Positions 25,626-38,616 of a DNA stretch of 64,000 nucleotides are shown here, piece after piece (position 1 is the first letter of the stretch; each line of letters opens with the position of its first letter). The stretch comes from Corallococcus sp. NCRR (lineage in GTDB: Bacteria > Myxococcota > Myxococcia > Myxococcales > Myxococcaceae), in contig NZ_CP114039.1 of NCBI RefSeq assembly GCF_026965535.1, forward strand, positions 496,001 through 560,000. Direction: 5' to 3'. Below the pieces are notes generated by a model. The model was not told the DNA's origin. It searched no databases and saw only the letters and a list, made by a program, of their open reading frames with translations. Position numbers and translations under genes: made by a program.

Positions 25626-25640
25626 GGAGGAATGCCGGCC

Positions 25641-26180
25641 ATGAGCCCCACGAACGATCCGAGGCCCCCCCTTCCCACTCCGGCCGACCATGACGCCGCC
25701 CTGATGGACGTCGCGAGGTCCGCCTTCGCGATGGCCCGAGCGGGCGATGCCGGGAAGCTCCGGCAGATGCTCGACGCCGGGATACCCGTGGGGCTGCGCA
25801 ACGAGCGGGGGGACTCCCTGCTGATGCTCGCCAGCTACCACGGCCACGTGGAGGCGACGCGGCTGCTGTTGCAACGCGGGGCGTCCCCGGAGCAGCCCAA
25901 CGACGCCGGCCAGACGCCCCTGGCCGGCGCGGCCTTCAAGGGCAACGTGGCCATCGCCACGGTGCTCCTGGACGCGAGCGCGGACGTGGACGGCGCGGGC
26001 CCGGACGGCCGCACCCCGCTGATGTTCGCGGCCATGTTCGACAAGCTGGAGCTGGTGGAGCTGCTCATCCAGCGCGGCGCGAAGAGCGAGCAGCGGGACG
26101 CGGACAAGCGCACCGCGCTGGACTACGCGCGGGCACTCGGTGCGTGGCGCACGGCCACGCGGTTGGAGTCCAGGTCCTGA
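25641..26180 (+). CDS. Ankyrin-repeat protein, AnkB-like partner of catalase
   Basis: 179 residues. The ATG at 25641 is ten bases from GGAGG at 25626-25630; an ATG at 25632 is too close to it, and 25641 also matches the start of the paralog at 27765. It has four to five ankyrin repeats, with units such as DSLLMLASYHGHVEATRLLL, AGQTPLAGAAFKGN and DGRTPLMFAAMFDKLELVELL. It has no signal peptide. In Pseudomonas AnkB encoded after katB is needed for full catalase activity, so a similar chaperone-like role is inferred. A second copy lies beyond the di-heme peroxidase gene. Confidence 0.87.
   Translation: MSPTNDPRPPLPTPADHDAALMDVARSAFAMARAGDAGKLRQMLDAGIPVGLRNERGDSLLMLASYHGHVEATRLLLQRGASPEQPNDAGQTPLAGAAFKGNVAIATVLLDASADVDGAGPDGRTPLMFAAMFDKLELVELLIQRGAKSEQRDADKRTALDYARALGAWRTATRLESRS
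25800..26130. repeat. Duplicated ankyrin coding block, copy 1
   Basis: This 331-base block aligns without gaps to 27918-28248 and the two read almost the same at DNA level, including shared runs around the DSLLMLASYHGH and DGRTPLMFAAMF segments. It indicates a fairly recent gene duplication flanking the peroxidase gene. Confidence 0.75.
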
Positions 26181-27764: not shown

Positions 27765-28298
27765 ATGAGCTCCCCGAACGATCCGAAGAATGCCTCCCCG
27801 TCCGCCGAGGACGCCGCCGTGCTGGACTTCGTGCGGAGCGCCTTCGCGCTGGTCCGCTCGGGGGACGCCGGCAAGCTGCGCGAGATGCTCGACGCAGGGC
27901 TCCCCGTGACTGTTCGCAACGAGCGGGGCGACTCCCTGCTGATGCTGGCCAGCTACCACGGCCACGTGGAGGCGACGCGCCTGCTGCTGGAGCGCGGGGC
28001 GGACCCCGAGCAGCCCAACGACGCCGGCCAGACGCCCCTGGCCGGCGCGGCGTTCAAGGGCAACGAGGCCATCGCCACGGTGCTCCTGGACGCGGGCGCG
28101 GACGTGGACGGCGTGGGCCCGGATGGCCGCACGCCGCTGATGTTCGCGGCCATGTTCGACAAGCTGGAGATGATGGAGCTGCTCATCCAGCGCGGCGCGG
28201 ACCACCGGGCCCGGGACGCGGACAAGCGCACCGCGCTGGACTACGCGCGCTCCATGGGCGCGCAGCGCGCGGCCGCCCGGTTGGACCCAAAGCCCTGA
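27765..28298 (+). CDS. Ankyrin-repeat protein, paralog of the gene at 25641
   Basis: 177 residues, start MSSPNDPKN, with AGGAAGGAAC upstream of the ATG. Repeats and order are the same as in the first copy; differences cluster at the N-terminus and at a few loop positions (for example GADHRARDADKR against GAKSEQRDADKR). No signal peptide. It stands alone behind its own upstream region rather than in the catalase operon, so expression may differ from its twin. It may serve the di-heme peroxidase or be a spare catalase helper; this is inference. It converges on the transketolase gene with a three-base gap. Confidence 0.85.
   Translation: MSSPNDPKNASPSAEDAAVLDFVRSAFALVRSGDAGKLREMLDAGLPVTVRNERGDSLLMLASYHGHVEATRLLLERGADPEQPNDAGQTPLAGAAFKGNEAIATVLLDAGADVDGVGPDGRTPLMFAAMFDKLEMMELLIQRGADHRARDADKRTALDYARSMGAQRAAARLDPKP
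27918..28248. repeat. Duplicated ankyrin coding block, copy 2
   Basis: Partner of 25800-26130, in the same orientation and of the same length (331 bases). The peroxidase gene and about 220 bases of intergenic DNA lie between the copies. Confidence 0.75.
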
Positions 28299-30389: not shown

Positions 30390-31511
30390 ATGAATCCGCT
30401 GCGACAGCTCGCCGAGTTCGGCCAATCCGTCTGGGTGGACAACCTCCAGCGCAGCTACATCACGAAGGGCACGCTGAAGAAGTTCATCGAGGAGGACGGC
30501 CTCAAGGGGCTCACCTCCAACCCGACCATCTTCCAGAAGGCCGTGTCGGGCAGCGACGACTACCAGGACCTCTTCGACGCGGCGAAGGGCAAGGGCCTCT
30601 CCGGCAACGACCTGTATGAGCAGCTCGCCGTGCGCGACGTGCAGGGCGCCGCGGACCTCCTCAAGCCCGTGTACGACGCGACGAAGGGCCAGGACGGCTA
30701 CGCGTCCCTGGAGGTGTCCCCCCGGCTGGCGCTGGACACGAACGGCACGCTGGAGGAGGCGCGGCGGCTGTGGAAGACGCTGGCGCGGCCCAACGTGATG
30801 ATCAAGGTCCCGGGCACCCTGCCGGGCCTGCCTGCCTTCGAGCAGCTCACCGCCGAGGGCATCAACGTCAACGTGACGCTGCTCTTCAGCCAGGAGCGCT
30901 ACAAGGAGATCGCCGAGGCCTACGTCGCGGGCCTGGAGAAGCTCGCCGCGTCCGGCGGGGACGTGAGCCGCGTGGCGAGCGTGGCGTCGTTCTTCATCAG
31001 CCGCATCGACGCCATCGTGGACAAGGAGATTGAGAAGAAGCTGAAGGCGGGCGCCACGCCGGAGCAGCAGAAGGCGATGGAGGGGCTGAGCGGCAAGGTG
31101 GCCATCGCCAACGCGAAGCTCGCCTACCGCACCTTCCAGGAGGTCTTCGGGAGCGCGCGCTGGAAGGCGCTCGCGGCGAAGGGCGCGAAGGTGCAGCGGG
31201 TGCTCTGGGCGAGCACCAGCACCAAGAGCCCGAAGCTGCGCGACGTGCTCTACGTGGAGGAGCTCATCGGCCGCGACACGGTGAACACCATGCCGCCCGC
31301 CACCATCGACGCGTTCCGCGACCACGGCAAGGTGCGCTCCAGCCTGGAGGAGGACCTGCCGGGGGCGGAGGCGACCATGCGCCAGTTGGAGGCGGCCGGC
31401 ATCTCCATGAAGACCGTGACGGACGAGCTGGCCACGGACGGCATCCGCCTGTTCACGGAGTCCTTCGATCAGCTCCTCTCCGCGGTGGGAGAGAAGCTGA
31501 AGAAGACGTAG
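30390..31511 (+). CDS. tal: Transaldolase
   Basis: 373 residues from the ATG at 30390 (MNPLRQLAEFGQS). Diagnostic blocks are VDNLQRSYI, LTSNPTIFQKA, RPNVMIKVPGT with the Schiff-base lysine, NVNVTLLFSQERY, and VASFFISRID. The length and the N-terminal SVWVDNLQR-type opening fit the longer bacterial transaldolase group seen in actinobacteria and cyanobacteria. It exchanges three-carbon units between sedoheptulose 7-phosphate and glyceraldehyde 3-phosphate. A GC-rich hairpin just after the stop separates it from the convergent giant NTPase gene. Confidence 0.94.
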   Translation: MNPLRQLAEFGQSVWVDNLQRSYITKGTLKKFIEEDGLKGLTSNPTIFQKAVSGSDDYQDLFDAAKGKGLSGNDLYEQLAVRDVQGAADLLKPVYDATKGQDGYASLEVSPRLALDTNGTLEEARRLWKTLARPNVMIKVPGTLPGLPAFEQLTAEGINVNVTLLFSQERYKEIAEAYVAGLEKLAASGGDVSRVASVASFFISRIDAIVDKEIEKKLKAGATPEQQKAMEGLSGKVAIANAKLAYRTFQEVFGSARWKALAAKGAKVQRVLWASTSTKSPKLRDVLYVEELIGRDTVNTMPPATIDAFRDHGKVRSSLEEDLPGAEATMRQLEAAGISMKTVTDELATDGIRLFTESFDQLLSAVGEKLKKT

Positions 31512-31520
31512 GAATCGGCC

Positions 31521-31554
31521 TTCTGCCCGGCGGTCAGGCTGACGCCGGGCGGAA
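31521..31554. terminator. Hairpin shared by convergent tal and the giant NTPase gene
   Basis: TTCTGCCCGGCG and CGCCGGGCGGAA pair over 12 positions, including one G-U, around a 10-base loop. It starts ten bases after the tal stop and includes the NTPase stop codon at 31534. No T-run follows on either strand, so termination strength is uncertain. Confidence 0.5.
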
Positions 31555-34500
31555 CAGGGTCTCAACCTGGAGTGCGATCTCGACGGCCTTCGGCCATCCC
31601 ATGCTGAGGTACGCATCCAACGCCCGGAGGTAGTCGGCTCGGAAGTCCGTACGCACCGCGAGGGCGCCGTCGTCATCCGCGAAGACACGGGCGAGCAACT
31701 CGACCGCGAGGTCCGCCGATTCCCGGTCACTCAGCTGGCCTCGGCTCATGGCCCCCTCGACGTAACGCCTCAACCAGTGGAGCGTGCGAGGTGCGTCCAG
31801 GTGAGCGCAGAACGAGAGCCCCTTGACGAGTGCACGAGCCGTGAACGGCGAGAGCCGCTCCAGGAGCAATTCCAAAATCGGCTCGACGCGCCTCCACCAG
31901 GCACGCATAGCCTCCGCCTGGGACGCGAAACCCGCCATCGGAGTCTCCGCCCCTTCAGCCGAGATATCCTCGTAGAGCGGGTCGCCCTTCTCCTCGTCTT
32001 CGTCCAGAGGCACGAGGCGCAACCTCGCTGCGAGGTCTGGATCCTGGGTGCGCAACCATCGCATGGAAGCCCGGCAGAACTTGCCCGCGACTCCCTGGAA
32101 GCACTCCTCAAGGCGTTCACGCCACAAGTCGGCCCCCCAGGAGGTCGTGATGACACGGGGCGGCTGCCATTCAGGGGAATCAGCCCTCAACTCACCCAGG
32201 CAGCTCTTGAGGACACCAAGGAGGAGGGCCTGGGCGCGCTCCACGATTTCAGGTCTTCGAACCAACTCCGGGCGCTTTCGAGGGAGTCCTTCCGGGAGGA
32301 CCACCCGAGTGGTTTGCCACAACACGTACTGGAGCTCCACGGCTCCATCTCGAGGCCCCTCCAGAAGGCGGGAGAGTTCCTCTTCCACCCAGGCCGGCGC
32401 AAGAACACAGTGGAGCATGCCGAGTGCTGCTCCCGCTGTCTTCCGAAGATCGAAGTGAGTATCCCGCTCTTCCTCACGATGTTGACGTGCTTTGTAGAGA
32501 AGTGCCTTCAACAGCGCGTCCGCACGCATCGCATCCCGACCGCGGAGGTGCAGTTGCCAAGTGTCTATGAGGAGTCGATAGAGCAGCTCCGTGCCATCCC
32601 TCCGAAGGCCTACCTCCTCCACCCACTCCTCGAGCGACTCGAAGACGACGGATGGAAAGGGCTCCAACAGGCGCCAGAGATACGACCCCAACATCTGGCG
32701 TACCTTCCCGCGAGGGCTCCGAGCCACACGACGCAATGCTTCTGCATGAGGGGACAGGCTCCCCTCGCGTAGCGCCAGGCCAATGAGGCCCCGGGCCGCG
32801 CTGGACTGAGCATCTCCGGGCTCCGCGCCAAACGCGTAAAGCCCCTTCGCGTTGGGATCAGAGGGCGAGTCCAGTGCCTCCTCGAAGCGGGCAGTCATCT
32901 CCGCCATCTGCAGGTCATCCAGGAAGACCCTGGCATGCGCCAGGTCCGACAGGGCATGAAGGACATATCGTCGGACGACGTCAACCAGCACGGGCTCCAC
33001 GGAAGACGGAGCCGCCGCCATTCGGGCTTCCGCCTCTCGGACGACACGAAAGACTTCTGCCACCTCCGCGCCAGGGCTCTCGAAGGCGAGGAGCTCACGA
33101 AGCGCGTCACCCACCTCGATGAGGGGTCCGTGCCCGGGACGGTCTATGTCGACGTGCCTGTTCGCGAGCAGGTCCTTCATGTTCTCGGGAATCGGAAGGA
33201 TGGTGGGAACAGGAACGTCCTCATCGACGTCCGCGTTCCTCGAACCCAAGCCTTTGCTCAGGCGCAGCGCCTGCTCTCCCAGATGCTCCTGGGGAATTCT
33301 CCGAAGGAGAGTCGCCCTGGCTCGTTTGATTTGACGGAGCCGGGTCCGTGCGCCCCTGCCCACTTCGCCTCGGAGTCCAAGAATCACGGCCTCAATGCGA
33401 TGGAGGTCTTCCGGCGCCAGTTCGTAGCTGACAGTCTCCAGGGCCCTCCGGGCGAACCAATGAGTGCCTCGCCCCACAAGGACTGCGGGAGCCAGGAGCA
33501 GCTCCAGGCACCTCCTCCCCAAGAACTCAGGAGCCTCTCTCATGGCAGCGAGAACCTGACACCAGAGACTCGCCTGGTCGTTCTCATGGAGGAGGACCGA
33601 CCAGACCCGGGTGAATACCTCTTGTCCGTTTGCACCTTTCGCCAGCGCTACGAGCTGATCCCGCCAGCTCTCAAGGAGTTCGTTCGGGTTCTCCGTGTTG
33701 AGATTGATGGAGTTCCAGCACCAGCGCCAGTAGCCATCTTCCACCATCCGCCGCTCCTGGCCCGCCAGCTTGAGCGTCTCGAAAGACTGACTGTGCGAAC
33801 CGCGGTCGTGCCTCTTCGAGAATCGACGTGCCACGTGAAGCACGGCCCGGGTCGCCTCTTCGGGAGAGACTCTGAAGAAAGAAGGAAAGTCTCGGTTGAG
33901 CTGGAACCTGGCGCCCTCTCCACTGGCGCCCCATGGCGCGACCTGTTTCGTAAGCGCCTCCGCCCCGGAGAGCGTCCGCGCCTCCCAGCACCCGAACGCC
34001 ACCTCATAGAGCCAGCGCGCCAGGCGTGCGTCTCCGCGCGCGATGTCACCGAGGTGGTTCGCAAGCTCGCTCAACGCAATGGCAGGCCGGGTCTCCAGTC
34101 CCTCTTCAACGAGGAGTTCACGGATGAAGTCACGGGAACGCTCCGGAGCTGAGGAGAATGTCCGGCAGATCCATCCGAGCATTGGACGCGGAGCTTCGCC
34201 CCAGGGGTCCTGACGGCTCCGCTCGTCCGCCAGGAGGATCGCGGCAGCGTTCATGAGCCCACGTGCCTCGTCTCCCAGGCTCTCGAGGTGCGTGTCTGCG
34301 GTGGCCAGGAGCAATTGGCAGGCCTCCAAGAGCTCCGGTCCCGACGTGCGCACCAACTGCTGTGCCAGGCGGAGCCACCATCCGCCTTCTCCCTGCGGGA
34401 AGCGGCGAGGCAACATGACGAAGGCAGCCCCAATGGCCACTCCCTTGAGTGCACGCGCCCAATCCTCCTCGTCACGGCCCGGGCCCAAGGCGCCCCGCAT

Positions 34501-36666
34501 GAGCGGGTCGAGTTCCGCCTCGGTCTTCGCCTCCTCCGCGATGACCACGTAGGCCGAAAGCCGGTGCAGTCCCGAGACCCTGGCGCGCTCGAGCTCGAGC
34601 AGCAGATCCCAGAAGTCGAGCCGCCCCCTCACCCAGGTGTACCGCAGGAACAACACCAAGCTGGGGCGCAGCATGAGCGGCCAGGCCTCATCCGAGACCA
34701 GCTCGGCGGTCAGCCGCTTGCGACGGCGGCGCACGAAAAGCCGCTCGGCGGCATAGTCGAAGAAGAGGTGGTGCGAGAACTCGACACGCTCCACCTCGGG
34801 GAGCCGTCCGGGAATGAGCGGCGGATGGCGGATGAGCCCGGTACTCAAAAGGACATCGAGCACGGGTGTCGGTAGCGCTCGCGGAGGTATCTGCAGTGTG
34901 CGCTCATGGACCATCTGATCCACCAACGCCGTAAGCCCGGCTTCGAGTTCGGCGTGCTGGGGGTGATCCAGGATGCGCCGCTCCCAGTAACGCTCGAACA
35001 GCTCCGCCTGTGTCGAAATCCCAGAGAGCGCCGTGGGCTCCTGCCCCTCATCGAGCATCTGGCAGAGCAGATCCAGGCTGAAGAGGTTCCGGATGACGGA
35101 CCTCAGCGCGGGAGCATGAGCCAACACGCGTCCCAGCACCGGGAAGGCCGTCAGGACCTGCTGTAACTCTTGCTCGCTGAGCACATCGATGAGGAGCGCG
35201 TTCACCCGAGCCCCCAGCACGGCCGATGCGTCGGGAACGCCCTCCTCGGAGTCCAGCCATTCTAGCTCCCGGGCGAAGCACTGCTTGAGCCAGCTCGCGT
35301 ACTGGGCATCCACCCGGCGGATGGAGACGATCACGCGCACTCCTGCGCCGCGGGCCTGTTTCAGCAGCTTCTGGTAGGCGTTCTGGGCACTGGCATCTCG
35401 GACGCCATCCAGCCCATCGACGATGAGGGTGATGCCCCCGGTGGCCCGCGCCTCGCTGAAGAGACCACTCCAGGAGTGCTGAAGCATGAGCGTGGCGCCC
35501 ATGCGCATGGGAGTGGGCCCCATCAGGGAGTCTGCGGCCCAGTACCAGACACGCTGCTCGCGCTTGCGCAGCTGACGAGCCAATTGGAGGAGGCAGCCGG
35601 TCTTGCCCGTACCCGCGTCCCCGACCACCACGAATGAGGCTTCCGGTGCGTCCAGCAAGGCGCGGAGCGCAGGCCGCTCGAGCGAGAAGGTCCTCCCCAG
35701 TTGGAGGCGGGAGCGTCCCTCCTGCTCATGCGCGGCGAGCTCATCCTGTGAGAACTTGTCCAGGCGATCAAAGTCCCGCCAGTAGTCACTCCCCTCCCGA
35801 AGTGAGACCTTCTCGGCCAAGACCTTGCGGAGTGAGCTGCGGTCATGGAAACGCCGTTCCGCCAGGAGATCATCCGCGCAGCGGTGAAGGAGCGCCATGG
35901 CCGTGGGCGCTTGCCATGACTCTGAGAGGAGCCCGTACTGGAGGGCATCCTGAGCGCTCAGGAAGTCTGCTTCTCCTTCCGCCAGCCGGAGCTGTGCCAC
36001 ACACACCTGTCGAAGCAGGTGCTGTCGTAGAGTGCTCAGCGCCGCGAGTGAGTACTTCCCGGCAAGCCGATCCAGGATCGAGGTGATGTTTTCGGCCAGT
36101 TCGTGCTCCCGGGCGTTGGTCGCGGCCGCCACCAGGGCCGCTCCGTCCGCCAGGGAGCGGTAGCGGTCTAGGAGCTGGACGAGGCGAGTGAGCGTTCCAT
36201 TGTGCTCCTCGTAGAAGAGGACATAGCGGCGCTCCCCCGTCTCCCCTGCGTCCGCCTGGGACTGCCGTGCGAACTGCAGCAGGACGGAGCCCCACTCACT
36301 GTCTTCGGACACTCCCACCTTGAGCGACCGCTTGCACTGCCCATAGAGCCGTGCGCCGCCAGACAGCTCGACCCGGATGTCGTCGATTGCGTCTCCACTC
36401 TCCCCGGCAAGCCGCTCCGCGACACAAGCCCCCACCAGCCCAAACCGGGCGCCCAGGCGCGTGCCGAGGAGGATCCGCGTCATCCACCAGGCAGCCACCC
36501 GGGCCTGGAAGCGCTGACCTCCAGCCATGGCGCTACCACCGGCATCACTGCGCTCCGTCCGTTCCATGGGCTCCCGACTGTAGCGCTCGGCAAGCCAGAC
36601 GAGTGAGTCGATGTCGGCGGGATCGCATGCGTGAGGACTTGGCGCATCGCGTTCTCCGGGCATCAT
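31534..36666 (-). CDS. Giant nuclease/STAND-type NTPase, candidate antiviral defence protein
   Basis: 1710 residues if started at 36666; in-frame ATGs at 36567 and 36528 (MAGGQRFQARVAAWW) are alternatives and the last is where recognisable homology begins. Residues about 47-180 look like a restriction-endonuclease fold: ESGDAIDDIRVEL followed by YGQCKR, that is Asp95/Asp96 and a Q110-x-K112 pair, as in Cap4/Mrr-like nucleases. A P-loop NTPase follows, with Walker A GDAGTGKT at 349-356 and Walker B ITLIVDGLD at 412-420. The remaining 1200 or so residues are helical, with no enzymatic motif, resembling the sensor repeats of STAND proteins. Codons are more A/T-rich at third positions than in neighbours. 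No mobile-element genes flank it. Defence is inferred from architecture. Confidence 0.8.
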   Translation of the reverse strand: MMPGERDAPSPHACDPADIDSLVWLAERYSREPMERTERSDAGGSAMAGGQRFQARVAAWWMTRILLGTRLGARFGLVGACVAERLAGESGDAIDDIRVELSGGARLYGQCKRSLKVGVSEDSEWGSVLLQFARQSQADAGETGERRYVLFYEEHNGTLTRLVQLLDRYRSLADGAALVAAATNAREHELAENITSILDRLAGKYSLAALSTLRQHLLRQVCVAQLRLAEGEADFLSAQDALQYGLLSESWQAPTAMALLHRCADDLLAERRFHDRSSLRKVLAEKVSLREGSDYWRDFDRLDKFSQDELAAHEQEGRSRLQLGRTFSLERPALRALLDAPEASFVVVGDAGTGKTGCLLQLARQLRKREQRVWYWAADSLMGPTPMRMGATLMLQHSWSGLFSEARATGGITLIVDGLDGVRDASAQNAYQKLLKQARGAGVRVIVSIRRVDAQYASWLKQCFARELEWLDSEEGVPDASAVLGARVNALLIDVLSEQELQQVLTAFPVLGRVLAHAPALRSVIRNLFSLDLLCQMLDEGQEPTALSGISTQAELFERYWERRILDHPQHAELEAGLTALVDQMVHERTLQIPPRALPTPVLDVLLSTGLIRHPPLIPGRLPEVERVEFSHHLFFDYAAERLFVRRRRKRLTAELVSDEAWPLMLRPSLVLFLRYTWVRGRLDFWDLLLELERARVSGLHRLSAYVVIAEEAKTEAELDPLMRGALGPGRDEEDWARALKGVAIGAAFVMLPRRFPQGEGGWWLRLAQQLVRTSGPELLEACQLLLATADTHLESLGDEARGLMNAAAILLADERSRQDPWGEAPRPMLGWICRTFSSAPERSRDFIRELLVEEGLETRPAIALSELANHLGDIARGDARLARWLYEVAFGCWEARTLSGAEALTKQVAPWGASGEGARFQLNRDFPSFFRVSPEEATRAVLHVARRFSKRHDRGSHSQSFETLKLAGQERRMVEDGYWRWCWNSINLNTENPNELLESWRDQLVALAKGANGQEVFTRVWSVLLHENDQASLWCQVLAAMREAPEFLGRRCLELLLAPAVLVGRGTHWFARRALETVSYELAPEDLHRIEAVILGLRGEVGRGARTRLRQIKRARATLLRRIPQEHLGEQALRLSKGLGSRNADVDEDVPVPTILPIPENMKDLLANRHVDIDRPGHGPLIEVGDALRELLAFESPGAEVAEVFRVVREAEARMAAAPSSVEPVLVDVVRRYVLHALSDLAHARVFLDDLQMAEMTARFEEALDSPSDPNAKGLYAFGAEPGDAQSSAARGLIGLALREGSLSPHAEALRRVARSPRGKVRQMLGSYLWRLLEPFPSVVFESLEEWVEEVGLRRDGTELLYRLLIDTWQLHLRGRDAMRADALLKALLYKARQHREEERDTHFDLRKTAGAALGMLHCVLAPAWVEEELSRLLEGPRDGAVELQYVLWQTTRVVLPEGLPRKRPELVRRPEIVERAQALLLGVLKSCLGELRADSPEWQPPRVITTSWGADLWRERLEECFQGVAGKFCRASMRWLRTQDPDLAARLRLVPLDEDEEKGDPLYEDISAEGAETPMAGFASQAEAMRAWWRRVEPILELLLERLSPFTARALVKGLSFCAHLDAPRTLHWLRRYVEGAMSRGQLSDRESADLAVELLARVFADDDGALAVRTDFRADYLRALDAYLSMGWPKAVEIALQVETLFRPASA

Positions 36667-36757
36667 CCCCTGGCGGCTCCCCCTGGGGCGGGCAGCCCGG
36701 AGGCCCTGGGAACACTCCCACCTCCTTGCCGTGCCCGGTGGAAGGCAATGCCTTGCA

Positions 36758-36790
36758 CTCCACCCGTCCCGCCGCGTTTCACGGGTGGAG
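36758..36790 (-). terminator. Hairpin downstream of the chitinase gene
   Basis: CTCCACCCGT and ACGGGTGGAG form a perfect 10-bp stem around a 13-base loop, 17 bases past the chitinase stop. No clear T-run follows in the leftward direction. It also separates the chitinase gene from the start of the NTPase gene. Confidence 0.5.
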
Positions 36791-36807
36791 GCAAAAGCCT
36801 CACGGGT

Positions 36808-38616
36808 CTACCGGTAGGTGTCCAGGTAGGCGCGGTGGCTGTTGGAGAACTCGAAGTTCGTGAACTTGTCCCAGTTGATGGACCAGGTCATCAGCCCCTT
36901 GAAGCCCGGGTAGCCGCCGGCCTTGCGCAGCACGTAGGTGCCTCCGAAGGACTGGCCCTTCATCAGGTAGTCCAGCGCCTTCTGCACGTTGGCGGTCGTG
37001 GTGTAGCCACCGCCCGCGGCCTGCGGCGAGGACGGCAGGCCGATGACCACCTGCTCCGGCCGCAGCGCGGGGAAGACGGCGCTCGCGTTGCCGCCCACGG
37101 GGAAGCCCTGGAGCAGCATCTCCGCCATGGCCACATGGAAGTCCGGCGTGCTCTGCGCGTACGCGCGGCCGTCCAGGGCCATCACCGTGCCGGTGTTGTA
37201 GTGCTGCACGTGCAGGTACGTCAGCCGGTCGCGCAGCGCGTGGATGACCGGGAGGTAGGCGCCCCACGGGCCGCCATACGCCGCATAGCCGCCCTGCACG
37301 TAGGCGGTCTCCGGCGCCATGGTGAGCAGGAAGCCCGAGCCGTTGTCATTGAGCAACTGGCGCGTGCCGGCGATGAGGTTCTGGATGCGCGGCGTGGTGG
37401 GGTTGCGGAAGTCGGTGTCCCCGCCGTTGAGCGCCAGCGACGCGCCCTCCAGGTCCAGGTCCAGGCCGTCAAAGCCATACGTGTTGATGAGCCCCTGCAT
37501 GCTGGTGACGAAGGCCTGCCGCGCCGCCGCGTCGTCCAGGTGGATGGTGCCGTTGGCGCCGCCCAGGGAGATGAGCACCTTGCGGCCCTGCGCCTTGAGC
37601 GTGGCGATGTCCGCCTTGAACTCGGCCACGGTGGCGTTGTACGGGGTGAAGCCCATGGTGCCTGACGGCGCGCCCGCCACCGGCTCCGCGAAGGCCACCT
37701 GGATGACGTTGAACTTCGAGGACACGTCGCGCAGCCGGATGTTGGTGGAGCCGTTGTCGAAGTTGTGCCAGTAGCCGACCAGCACCTTGCTGCCCGCCGG
37801 AGCCGTGTTGCCCGTCGTCACGGCGACGCTGTTGCTCGCGGCGGAGCGGTTGCCGGCCGCGTCGCGCGCCTTCGCGGTGAACGTGTACGTGGTGTTGGCG
37901 GCGAGCCCCGTCACGGTGGCGCTCAGCGCGGTGCTGGTGGCCGCCGCGGTGGCGCCGCCGTTGACGAAGATTTCGTAGCCGGTGACGCCCACGTTGTCGG
38001 TGGACGCGTTGAACGCCAGGGACACGCTGGAGGCCGTCACGCCGGTGGAGCGCAGGGAGCCGGGCGCGGTGGGGGCCTGCGTGTCCTGCGCGGGGCGGTT
38101 GGGCGTGGTGGTGCTGAACGCGGCGCTCGCGGCGGAGCGGTTGCCGGCCGCGTCGCGTGCCTTCACGGTGAACGTATAGGTCGTGTTGGCGGCGAGCCCC
38201 GTGACGGTGGCGCTCGGGGTGGTGGAGGTGGCGGAGGCGGAGGCGCCGTTGTTGACGAAGACCTCGTAGCCGGTGACGCCCACGTTGTCGGTGGACGCGC
38301 TCCAGGTCAGCGACACGCTGTCATACGTCTTGGAGGGCGAGCCGACGCCGGAGGGGGCGGAGGGGGCCTGCGTGTCCGCGGGAGGGTTGCCGGTGCGCTC
38401 CAGCCACAGGGCGAGCACGTTGGGCGGCTCCCAGCCCACCAGGGACGTGTGTGACTGCCGGCAGTCGTAGCCCTTCCCTCCATAGGACGCGATGTCGCCC
38501 ACGGTGTACGCGACGCCCGGGGCCCAGGCGCCCCGGTCCGCGGCCAGGGCCAGGGTGGGCAGAAGCAGCAGGAGCACGGCGAGCGCCGCGCGGGACGACG
38601 AACGAGGGGGATGCAT
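36808..38616 (-). CDS. Secreted GH18 chitinase with chitin-binding and two FnIII modules
   Basis: 602 residues from the ATG at 38616; GGGAGG lies 11 bases upstream. A signal peptide ends near LALAADRG (about residue 26). Next comes a CBM5/12-like chitin-binding module (about 27-75: AWAPGVAYTVGD, YDCRQSHTSLVGWEPPN). Two FnIII modules of about 90 residues each follow, very alike (DNVGVTGYE, TYTFT.KARDAAGNRSAAS). The GH18 barrel runs from about 290 (VLVGYWHNF) to the end, with catalytic DGLDLDLE at 383-390 (Glu390 as acid) and a C-terminal MTWSINWD. It should hydrolyse chitin outside the cell, consistent with feeding on fungi or detritus. Confidence 0.93.
   Translation of the reverse strand: MHPPRSSSRAALAVLLLLLPTLALAADRGAWAPGVAYTVGDIASYGGKGYDCRQSHTSLVGWEPPNVLALWLERTGNPPADTQAPSAPSGVGSPSKTYDSVSLTWSASTDNVGVTGYEVFVNNGASASATSTTPSATVTGLAANTTYTFTVKARDAAGNRSAASAAFSTTTPNRPAQDTQAPTAPGSLRSTGVTASSVSLAFNASTDNVGVTGYEIFVNGGATAAATSTALSATVTGLAANTTYTFTAKARDAAGNRSAASNSVAVTTGNTAPAGSKVLVGYWHNFDNGSTNIRLRDVSSKFNVIQVAFAEPVAGAPSGTMGFTPYNATVAEFKADIATLKAQGRKVLISLGGANGTIHLDDAAARQAFVTSMQGLINTYGFDGLDLDLEGASLALNGGDTDFRNPTTPRIQNLIAGTRQLLNDNGSGFLLTMAPETAYVQGGYAAYGGPWGAYLPVIHALRDRLTYLHVQHYNTGTVMALDGRAYAQSTPDFHVAMAEMLLQGFPVGGNASAVFPALRPEQVVIGLPSSPQAAGGGYTTTANVQKALDYLMKGQSFGGTYVLRKAGGYPGFKGLMTWSINWDKFTNFEFSNSHRAYLDTYR
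37836..38008 (-). repeat. FnIII module repeat, copy closer to the catalytic domain
   Basis: Near-identical at DNA level to 38126-38299, both reading leftward inside the chitinase gene. It encodes the second FnIII module. Such recent intragenic duplications are common in linker modules. Confidence 0.7.
38126..38299 (-). repeat. FnIII module repeat, N-terminal copy
   Basis: Partner of 37836-38008. Both end in the same stretch that encodes STDNVGVTGYE. Confidence 0.7.

Follow-up and report, generated by a model that had tools for sequence, protein, structure and literature searches.

A candidate single-gene nuclease-STAND immune receptor of the PDC-M54A family at a variable chromosomal junction in Corallococcus sp. 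NCRR

In the 64,000-nucleotide stretch of Corallococcus sp. NCRR analysed here (contig NZ_CP114039.1, positions 496,001 to 560,000; hereafter the window), the minus-strand open reading frame (ORF) 31534-36666 encodes a protein of the PDC-M54A family, which we regard, with a probability of about 0.7, as an immune receptor of the Avs/NLR type, encoded by a single gene and acquired by horizontal transfer; its tail would bind a ligand, the NTPase would oligomerise, DNA would be cut and the infected cell would be arrested. The protein shows the domain order of Avs proteins, namely an N-terminal effector-like domain, a central STAND NTPase and a long C-terminal region (Table 1). An original prediction made from this DNA had proposed such a layout, and a nuclease profile match, an NTPase module and a tail of about 1,070 residues beyond that module support it; the interpretation as a whole was partly supported.

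The ORF comprises 1,710 codons without an internal stop and is intact. Since most of 12 aligned relatives start near residue 34-44, M34 (position 36567) is the likelier start and would give a protein of 1,677 amino acids. A frame-shifted or chimeric ORF was rejected, as the conserved motifs align in order through the C-terminus. The only match to the protein in the 9.79-Mb, single-contig genome is the protein itself, showing that the gene is single-copy. Its G+C content at third codon positions (GC3) is 0.763, the lowest among the window genes listed by a simple gene-calling script, which miscalled one region over the transaldolase gene (tal); the mean of this list is 0.919 (sd 0.054, the gene itself included). 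The 3' end lies 22 bp from the stop codon of the convergent tal gene, and the start, counted from M34, 240 bp from the 3' end of a chitinase gene on the same strand. The large intact frame with its YGQCKR, Walker A and Walker B motifs, the A/T-richer third codon positions, and the solitary gene of foreign composition, all put forward in the original prediction, were recovered.

Two PDC-M54A profiles of PADLOC-DB match over most of the length of the protein (PDLC04700, residues 42-1452, E 5.4e-131; PDLC04702, residues 36-1695, E 7.2e-102). Moreover, a profile built from 14 full-length relatives, with the window protein left out, scores it at 527 bits, compared to 6.8 bits for the best of 200 shuffles. 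By segment, the score is 206 bits for residues 324-673, 91 bits for 34-193 and 32 bits for 194-323, while the tail segments reach 60, 45 and 26 bits, and residues 1184-1433 only 8.0 bits (E 3.9). The protein is thus homologous to PDC-M54A over its full length, with the conserved regions in the same order, and differs in its identity of 19-23% to 12 relatives, in having the longest end branch of the family tree, and in lacking in its locus and genome the companion M54B, for which PADLOC-DB holds families beside M54A. Pfam gave weak P-loop matches only (nSTAND_NTPase5, E 2e-4, below cutoff) and no nuclease family, the NCBIfam scan P-loop noise only, and a phmmer search against PDB sequences no match. 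PDC families are presented by their source as unvalidated candidates, many of them obtained via guilt-by-embedding (PMC12988326). No paper using 'PDC-M54' or 'M54A' was found in open-licence PMC texts. The earlier claim of an undescribed system therefore has to be narrowed: the family is catalogued, yet undescribed as far as searched, and what is new is the partner-free, deeply diverged form.

The N-terminal head has the sequence marks of a Cap4/AbpA-type nuclease. When the nuclease profile was compared with solved sequences, the only significant match was PDB 8zue, 'Anti-bacteriophage protein A' (E 1.5e-4; next match 0.07). The pattern GGxA...FQ...E...DD...Q-x-K is common to the head, AbpA (of AbpAB) and Cap4/DUF4297, the Q being the variant seen in AbpA, and residues E89, D95, D96, Q110 and K112, the last two within YGQCKR at residues 108-113, are identical in 14/14 full-length relatives. 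As described for AbpAB, D45, Q58 and K60 of AbpA occupy the positions of D50, E67 and K69 of Cap4, and with either Q58A or K60A phage T4 grows normally and defence is lost (PMC10732053). Since each of these substitutions abolishes defence against T4, the PD-(D/E)XK-like N-terminus with a variant Q-x-K pair, as originally predicted, has a working precedent. The window head differs in being fused to a STAND NTPase, whereas AbpA, in the descriptions available, partners a helicase and Cap4 has a SAVED domain.

Related heads were also seen on other chains. Two proteins of 1,468 amino acids (L022, 5771-10174, minus strand; L024, 308-4714, plus strand) have an M54A-type nuclease head, L024 being judged by its similar N-terminus only; the L022 protein combines nuclease, ThsB-like TIR and NACHT domains within one chain and thus seems to place two effectors on one receptor. 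In a protein of 1,355 amino acids (L023, 6631-10695, minus strand), which also gave a weak HEAT match, the same kind of head precedes a NACHT domain, and a NACHT protein adjoining an M54A gene (L016, 3921-7436, minus strand) has a similar head in which S-x-K, as aligned, replaces Q-x-K.

The middle of the protein holds a P-loop with Walker A and Walker B motifs followed by helical and winged-helix domains, the composition of a STAND module, the Pfam matches being below cutoffs. Both Walker motifs had been read in the original prediction, and their residues G349, G354, K355, D417 and D420 are identical in 14/14 relatives, with T or S at position 356; the same holds for S448 and R450 and for H632, H633, F636 and D637. 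In an AlphaFold2 model of residues 34-720, made from three sequences and with a mean predicted local distance difference test score (pLDDT) of 56.6, the pLDDT is roughly 40-79 in the NTPase core and mostly 70-90 in the winged-helix part. The top Foldseek match was Avs4 bound to phage portal (8dgf, E 3.9e-5, query-normalised template modelling (TM) score 0.25), followed by NLRC4 (E 4.7e-5, query TM 0.37). With VIA-align, in which helical models often reach Z 14, NLRC4 gave Z 16.9 (root-mean-square deviation (rmsd) 5.0 over 368 residues), followed by NLRP3 and NLRP9; these matches cover mainly model residues 261-687 and barely include the nuclease part. As modelled, the middle part thus resembles NLR/STAND modules. 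NLRC4 and NLRP3, mammalian NACHT receptors, have the NACHT-winged-helix arrangement in common with the window protein but differ by an identity of 14% and in effector and sensor; since similarity of fold does not establish a common function, we rejected carrying over functions from mammalian NLR proteins.

Among solved sequences, the family profile matched one at E<=1e-5, the 1,523-residue 'AAA family ATPase' 9n00 (E 3e-13). In 9n00, 9n01 and 9yix, pieces collinear with the window family are found (DD...QCK, NTPase, winged helix and a HEAT-like tail), the nuclease and tail pieces being non-significant singly. Within PADLOC, the winged-helix fragment matches only PDC-M54A (E 7e-6), and the NTPase fragment scores PtuA first. 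No paper printing these three codes was found in the literature searched.

The genomic setting is that of a variable site. The transaldolase and chitinase genes are present in 16/16 genomes of the genus (own included) and lie on one contig in 14 of the 15 congeners; in G003 they are on different contigs, so that insert sizes refer to the other 14. The original prediction had called for a look at whether this junction is empty elsewhere: it is nearly so in two congeners, with 17 bp (G007) and 56 bp (G013) between the stop codons, and differently filled in the other 12, where 1.7 to 26.8 kb separate the flank matches, compared to 5.3 kb in the window. The insert of G012 (L073, 3206-9832) encodes two DncV-like cyclases, E1-E2, JAB and SAVED-CHAT proteins, a gene set of the cyclic oligonucleotide-based antiphage signalling system (CBASS), which the E1-E2 and JAB genes would place in type II, as well as a CHAT-TPR protein. 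That of G002 (L068, 2962-8651) encodes a CHAT protein, with a weak SAVED_CHAT match in PADLOC, and then an nSTAND1-WD40 protein of about 1,220 amino acids, and look-alikes of both, judged by similar sequence, are present in G005 and G015 (L067, L069). Thus, of the 15 genomes in which a single contig carries the two flanks, five (own, G012, G002, G005 and G015) have immune-type genes at the junction, as far as gene calls from a custom script and profile scans of cargo from G012 and G002, with nine proteins in one scan and ten in the PADLOC scan rather than every gene, reveal. The 64-kb window contains no tRNA, and no word of at least 8 bases is common, in direct orientation, to both insertion edges; hence there is no sign of target-site duplication or tRNA-driven integration. 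No Rfam match was obtained across 31000-37500. A stretch of about 79 bp upstream of the gene, similar to the leader region of a secreted-protein gene at the congeners' junction, is perhaps a relic of earlier cargo.

The family is patchily distributed. No match to the window protein was found in 15/15 congeners, and a match of the phylum scan was obtained in 8 of 195 genomes (own included), reaching well past the nuclease in five, the own genome among them, and limited to the nuclease region in three; these scans scored up to 8 (congeners) and 2 (phylum) first candidates per genome, and distant relatives may be missed. Of 58 other relatives in all, one had a distant homolog. The observation that the original prediction had set against itself, a gene kept at the same site by every relative and matching its surroundings in base composition, was not made, and an ordinary housekeeping gene was rejected on the same absence from congeners. 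In a plasmid collection 14 records matched, and in seven of the eight loci fetched from these a conflict-type neighbour was annotated (Shedu, HEPN, DUF262, methyltransferase/Vsr, NACHT, Abi, ABC-3C, HipA, PemK, PIN or DUF4365), L012 having none besides M54B. Two records filed as plasmids, NZ_LT559118.1 and NZ_CP069303.1, are 11.9 and 4.6 Mb long and probably chromosomes. Scans of genome contigs, which amount to no census, gave no relatives in the first and at least two among the matches listed in the second. Phage records gave no match, and for viral contigs none was confirmed among 600 candidate stretches, nor was there a pattern match in a second scan.

By homology, a mechanism can be proposed in which the STAND NTPase would keep the protein inactive in the resting cell. 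During infection, a component of a phage or other mobile element, most likely a protein, would bind the long helical C-terminal tail, upon which the NTPase would oligomerise and bring the Cap4/AbpA-type nuclease heads together; the paired heads would then cut DNA and the infected cell would be arrested. Ligand gating, oligomerisation, DNA cleavage and the abortive outcome are all inferred from homology. In published accounts, Avs1-4 are STAND proteins with nuclease effectors which, once they sense terminase, portal or some other protein of the phage, cleave the DNA of both phage and host (PMC12931631). DUF4297 of DUF4297-HerA is described as a double-stranded DNA nuclease with an abortive outcome, which its authors superposed on the Cap4 tetramer of Avs3 (PMC11291478). 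With Avs1-4 (AVAST; among them Avs3 with its Cap4 nuclease, and Avs4) the window protein has the order of nuclease, STAND and long tail in common, as well as the top Foldseek match, but it differs in the low TM-score of that match and in having no Avs-named match in PADLOC.

Several observations weigh against a receptor of this type. The protein matched seven PADLOC families at E<=10, none of them Avs-named, in a library that presumably contains Avs models and with HMMER filters that drop weak matches. Both Foldseek TM-scores are low, Avs4 reached only Z 9.8 at an rmsd of 15.7 in VIA-align, and high Z-scores are common there for helical models. The D...Q-x-K residues are invariant and the AbpA profile matches, as expected of a Cap4/DUF4297/AbpA-type nuclease, but the model of residues 34-720 has a pLDDT below 50 over the nuclease part, too low a value to judge the fold at residues 47-180, whose absence the original prediction had named as counting against it. 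Similarly, of the long helical C-terminus claimed in the original prediction, the length stands, while the all-helical model of residues 600-1710 (mean pLDDT 47.9) is consistent with the rest of the claim only. No measured function was found for any M54A protein, and none of the four M54B models has a match at E<=10 anywhere in the genome that contains the window. The position at the junction is by itself weak evidence. The remaining 8 of the 12 filled inserts, read by eye only, show kinase-like, TolB-like and secreted proteins and no immune gene, and none of the PADLOC families was matched by the nSTAND1-WD40 protein.

The absence of M54B raises the question of whether the gene was once paired, as the A member, with a partner that has been lost, and is inactive or decaying on its own; that M54A and M54B form one system is read from their names. 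Two proteins matching M54B (P0002 and P0003) are encoded directly downstream of M54A on Sphingobium and Rhizobium plasmids, and with their profile M54B was found directly downstream in 5/15 M54A loci (L012, L017, L018, L019 and L020) and nowhere in the other ten, the window among them; plasmid NC_011366, outside these 15, has the pair as well. L021 lacks M54B, though its nearest relative L018 has it, a pattern resembling loss. On the other hand, in a tree of the 15 proteins three further partner-free proteins form a group with that of the window (support 100/99), the M54A frame is open over 1,677 codons and the catalytic residues are kept, which makes partner loss an improbable explanation. 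The place of the window protein is unsure, since the tree is unrooted and the end branch very long (2.97). Presence and absence of M54B require at least three changes on this tree, a number reached as low in 39-40 of 500 label shuffles, indicating modest clustering. In control genomes, M54B models matched in Caulobacter, Methanosarcina, Haloferax and Corynebacterium at the lax threshold of E<=10, possibly by chance, and the M54A model had no match at E<=1e-5; M54B may occur without M54A.

A role in warding off plasmids and further kinds of incoming DNA, or in a regulated death of cells during multicellular behaviour, would be served equally by a nuclease-STAND layout, which suits any suicide switch, and homologs are indeed found on plasmids, in Streptomyces and in the window's own family. 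Since relatives also occur in Rhizobium, Agrobacterium, Gemmobacter, Sphingobium, Hymenobacter and Pedobacter, the family is not tied to multicellular life, and the lack of a match in the 15 congeners argues against a developmental role, leaving these functions unlikely in place of phage defence. Less likely still is a restriction-like enzyme whose tail reads DNA directly, for instance modified bases, and whose NTPase drives cleavage with no protein sensing. The nuclease does belong, by its sequence pattern, to the restriction-endonuclease fold class and no ligand is known, but Avs4 and NLR proteins are the top matches of the NTPase-winged-helix model, and no McrB was present among the best 50 structural matches, although a kinship with McrB may exist.

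A further proposal can be made, which we hold only tentatively and consider somewhat doubtful: the window gene and its partner-free relatives might form a separate class of one-gene nuclease-STAND receptors, set apart both from Avs1-5 and from the M54A-M54B pair, in which the fast-diverging tail stretch (residues 1184-1433) would recognise a novel phage trigger, and the junction might be a genus-wide exchange site swapping immune modules (this receptor, CBASS and CHAT-nSTAND). That residues 1184-1433 carry the specificity is our guess from their low conservation. Among the foremost cases of immunity common to bacteria, plants and animals are the bacterial NLR-like receptors, and a candidate family with a tested active-site precedent, often companion-free, is directly testable and could yield a new phage trigger. 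The variable junction can likewise guide the search for additional immune modules in the genus.

Table 1. Features of the window at and around the PDC-M54A-like gene (window coordinates; residues numbered from the start of the longest ORF)
Feature	Position	Strand	Basis or remark
Probable gene, PDC-M54A-like nuclease-STAND protein from M34	31534..36567	-	1,677 amino acids plus stop; longest ORF from 36666
Putative Cap4/AbpA-type PD-(D/E)XK nuclease domain, residues 41-180	36127..36546	-	8zue profile match; 34-193 scores 91 bits
Putative catalytic stretch E89...D95 D96...Q110-x-K112	36331..36402	-	Invariant in relatives; AbpA D45/Q58/K60 precedent
Linker between nuclease and NTPase, residues 181-320	35707..36126	-	Predicted helical (low confidence); mean identity 17% to relatives
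STAND NTPase core, residues 321-480	35227..35706	-	Sub-cutoff Pfam P-loop matches; model aligns with NLRC4/NLRP3 and Avs4
Walker A GDAGTGKT, residues 349-356	35599..35622	-	
Walker B LIVDGLD, residues 414-420	35407..35427	-	
Helical and winged-helix part, residues 500-640, ending in HHxxFD (632-637)	34747..35169	-	Model pLDDT mostly >70
C-terminal region, presumed sensor, residues 641-1710	31537..34746	-	All-helical low-confidence model; weak HEAT matches in L012 and L019 relatives
Least conserved tail stretch, residues 1184-1433, candidate ligand-specific part	32368..33117	-	8.0 bits, E 3.9; best shuffle 6.8
C-terminal GWxxA motif, residues 1690-1694	31585..31599	-	G1690 in 14/14, W1691 in 13/14 relatives
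Transaldolase (tal), 3' part, probe	30393..31511	+	Congener homology stops at or just before its stop codon
Stretch of about 79 bp like the upstream/leader region of the congeners' junction secreted-protein gene	36696..36774	+	blastn 74-86% (L062, L063, L066, L067, L071, L072); longer match in L065
Chitinase	36808..38616	-	Congener homology resumes at its 3' end; name from the original prediction and a reading of its sequence

Elsewhere in the window, two similar ankyrin-like genes (25632-26180 and 27765-28298) were noticed by eye on either side of a cytochrome-peroxidase-like gene, an arrangement that resembles a duplication.

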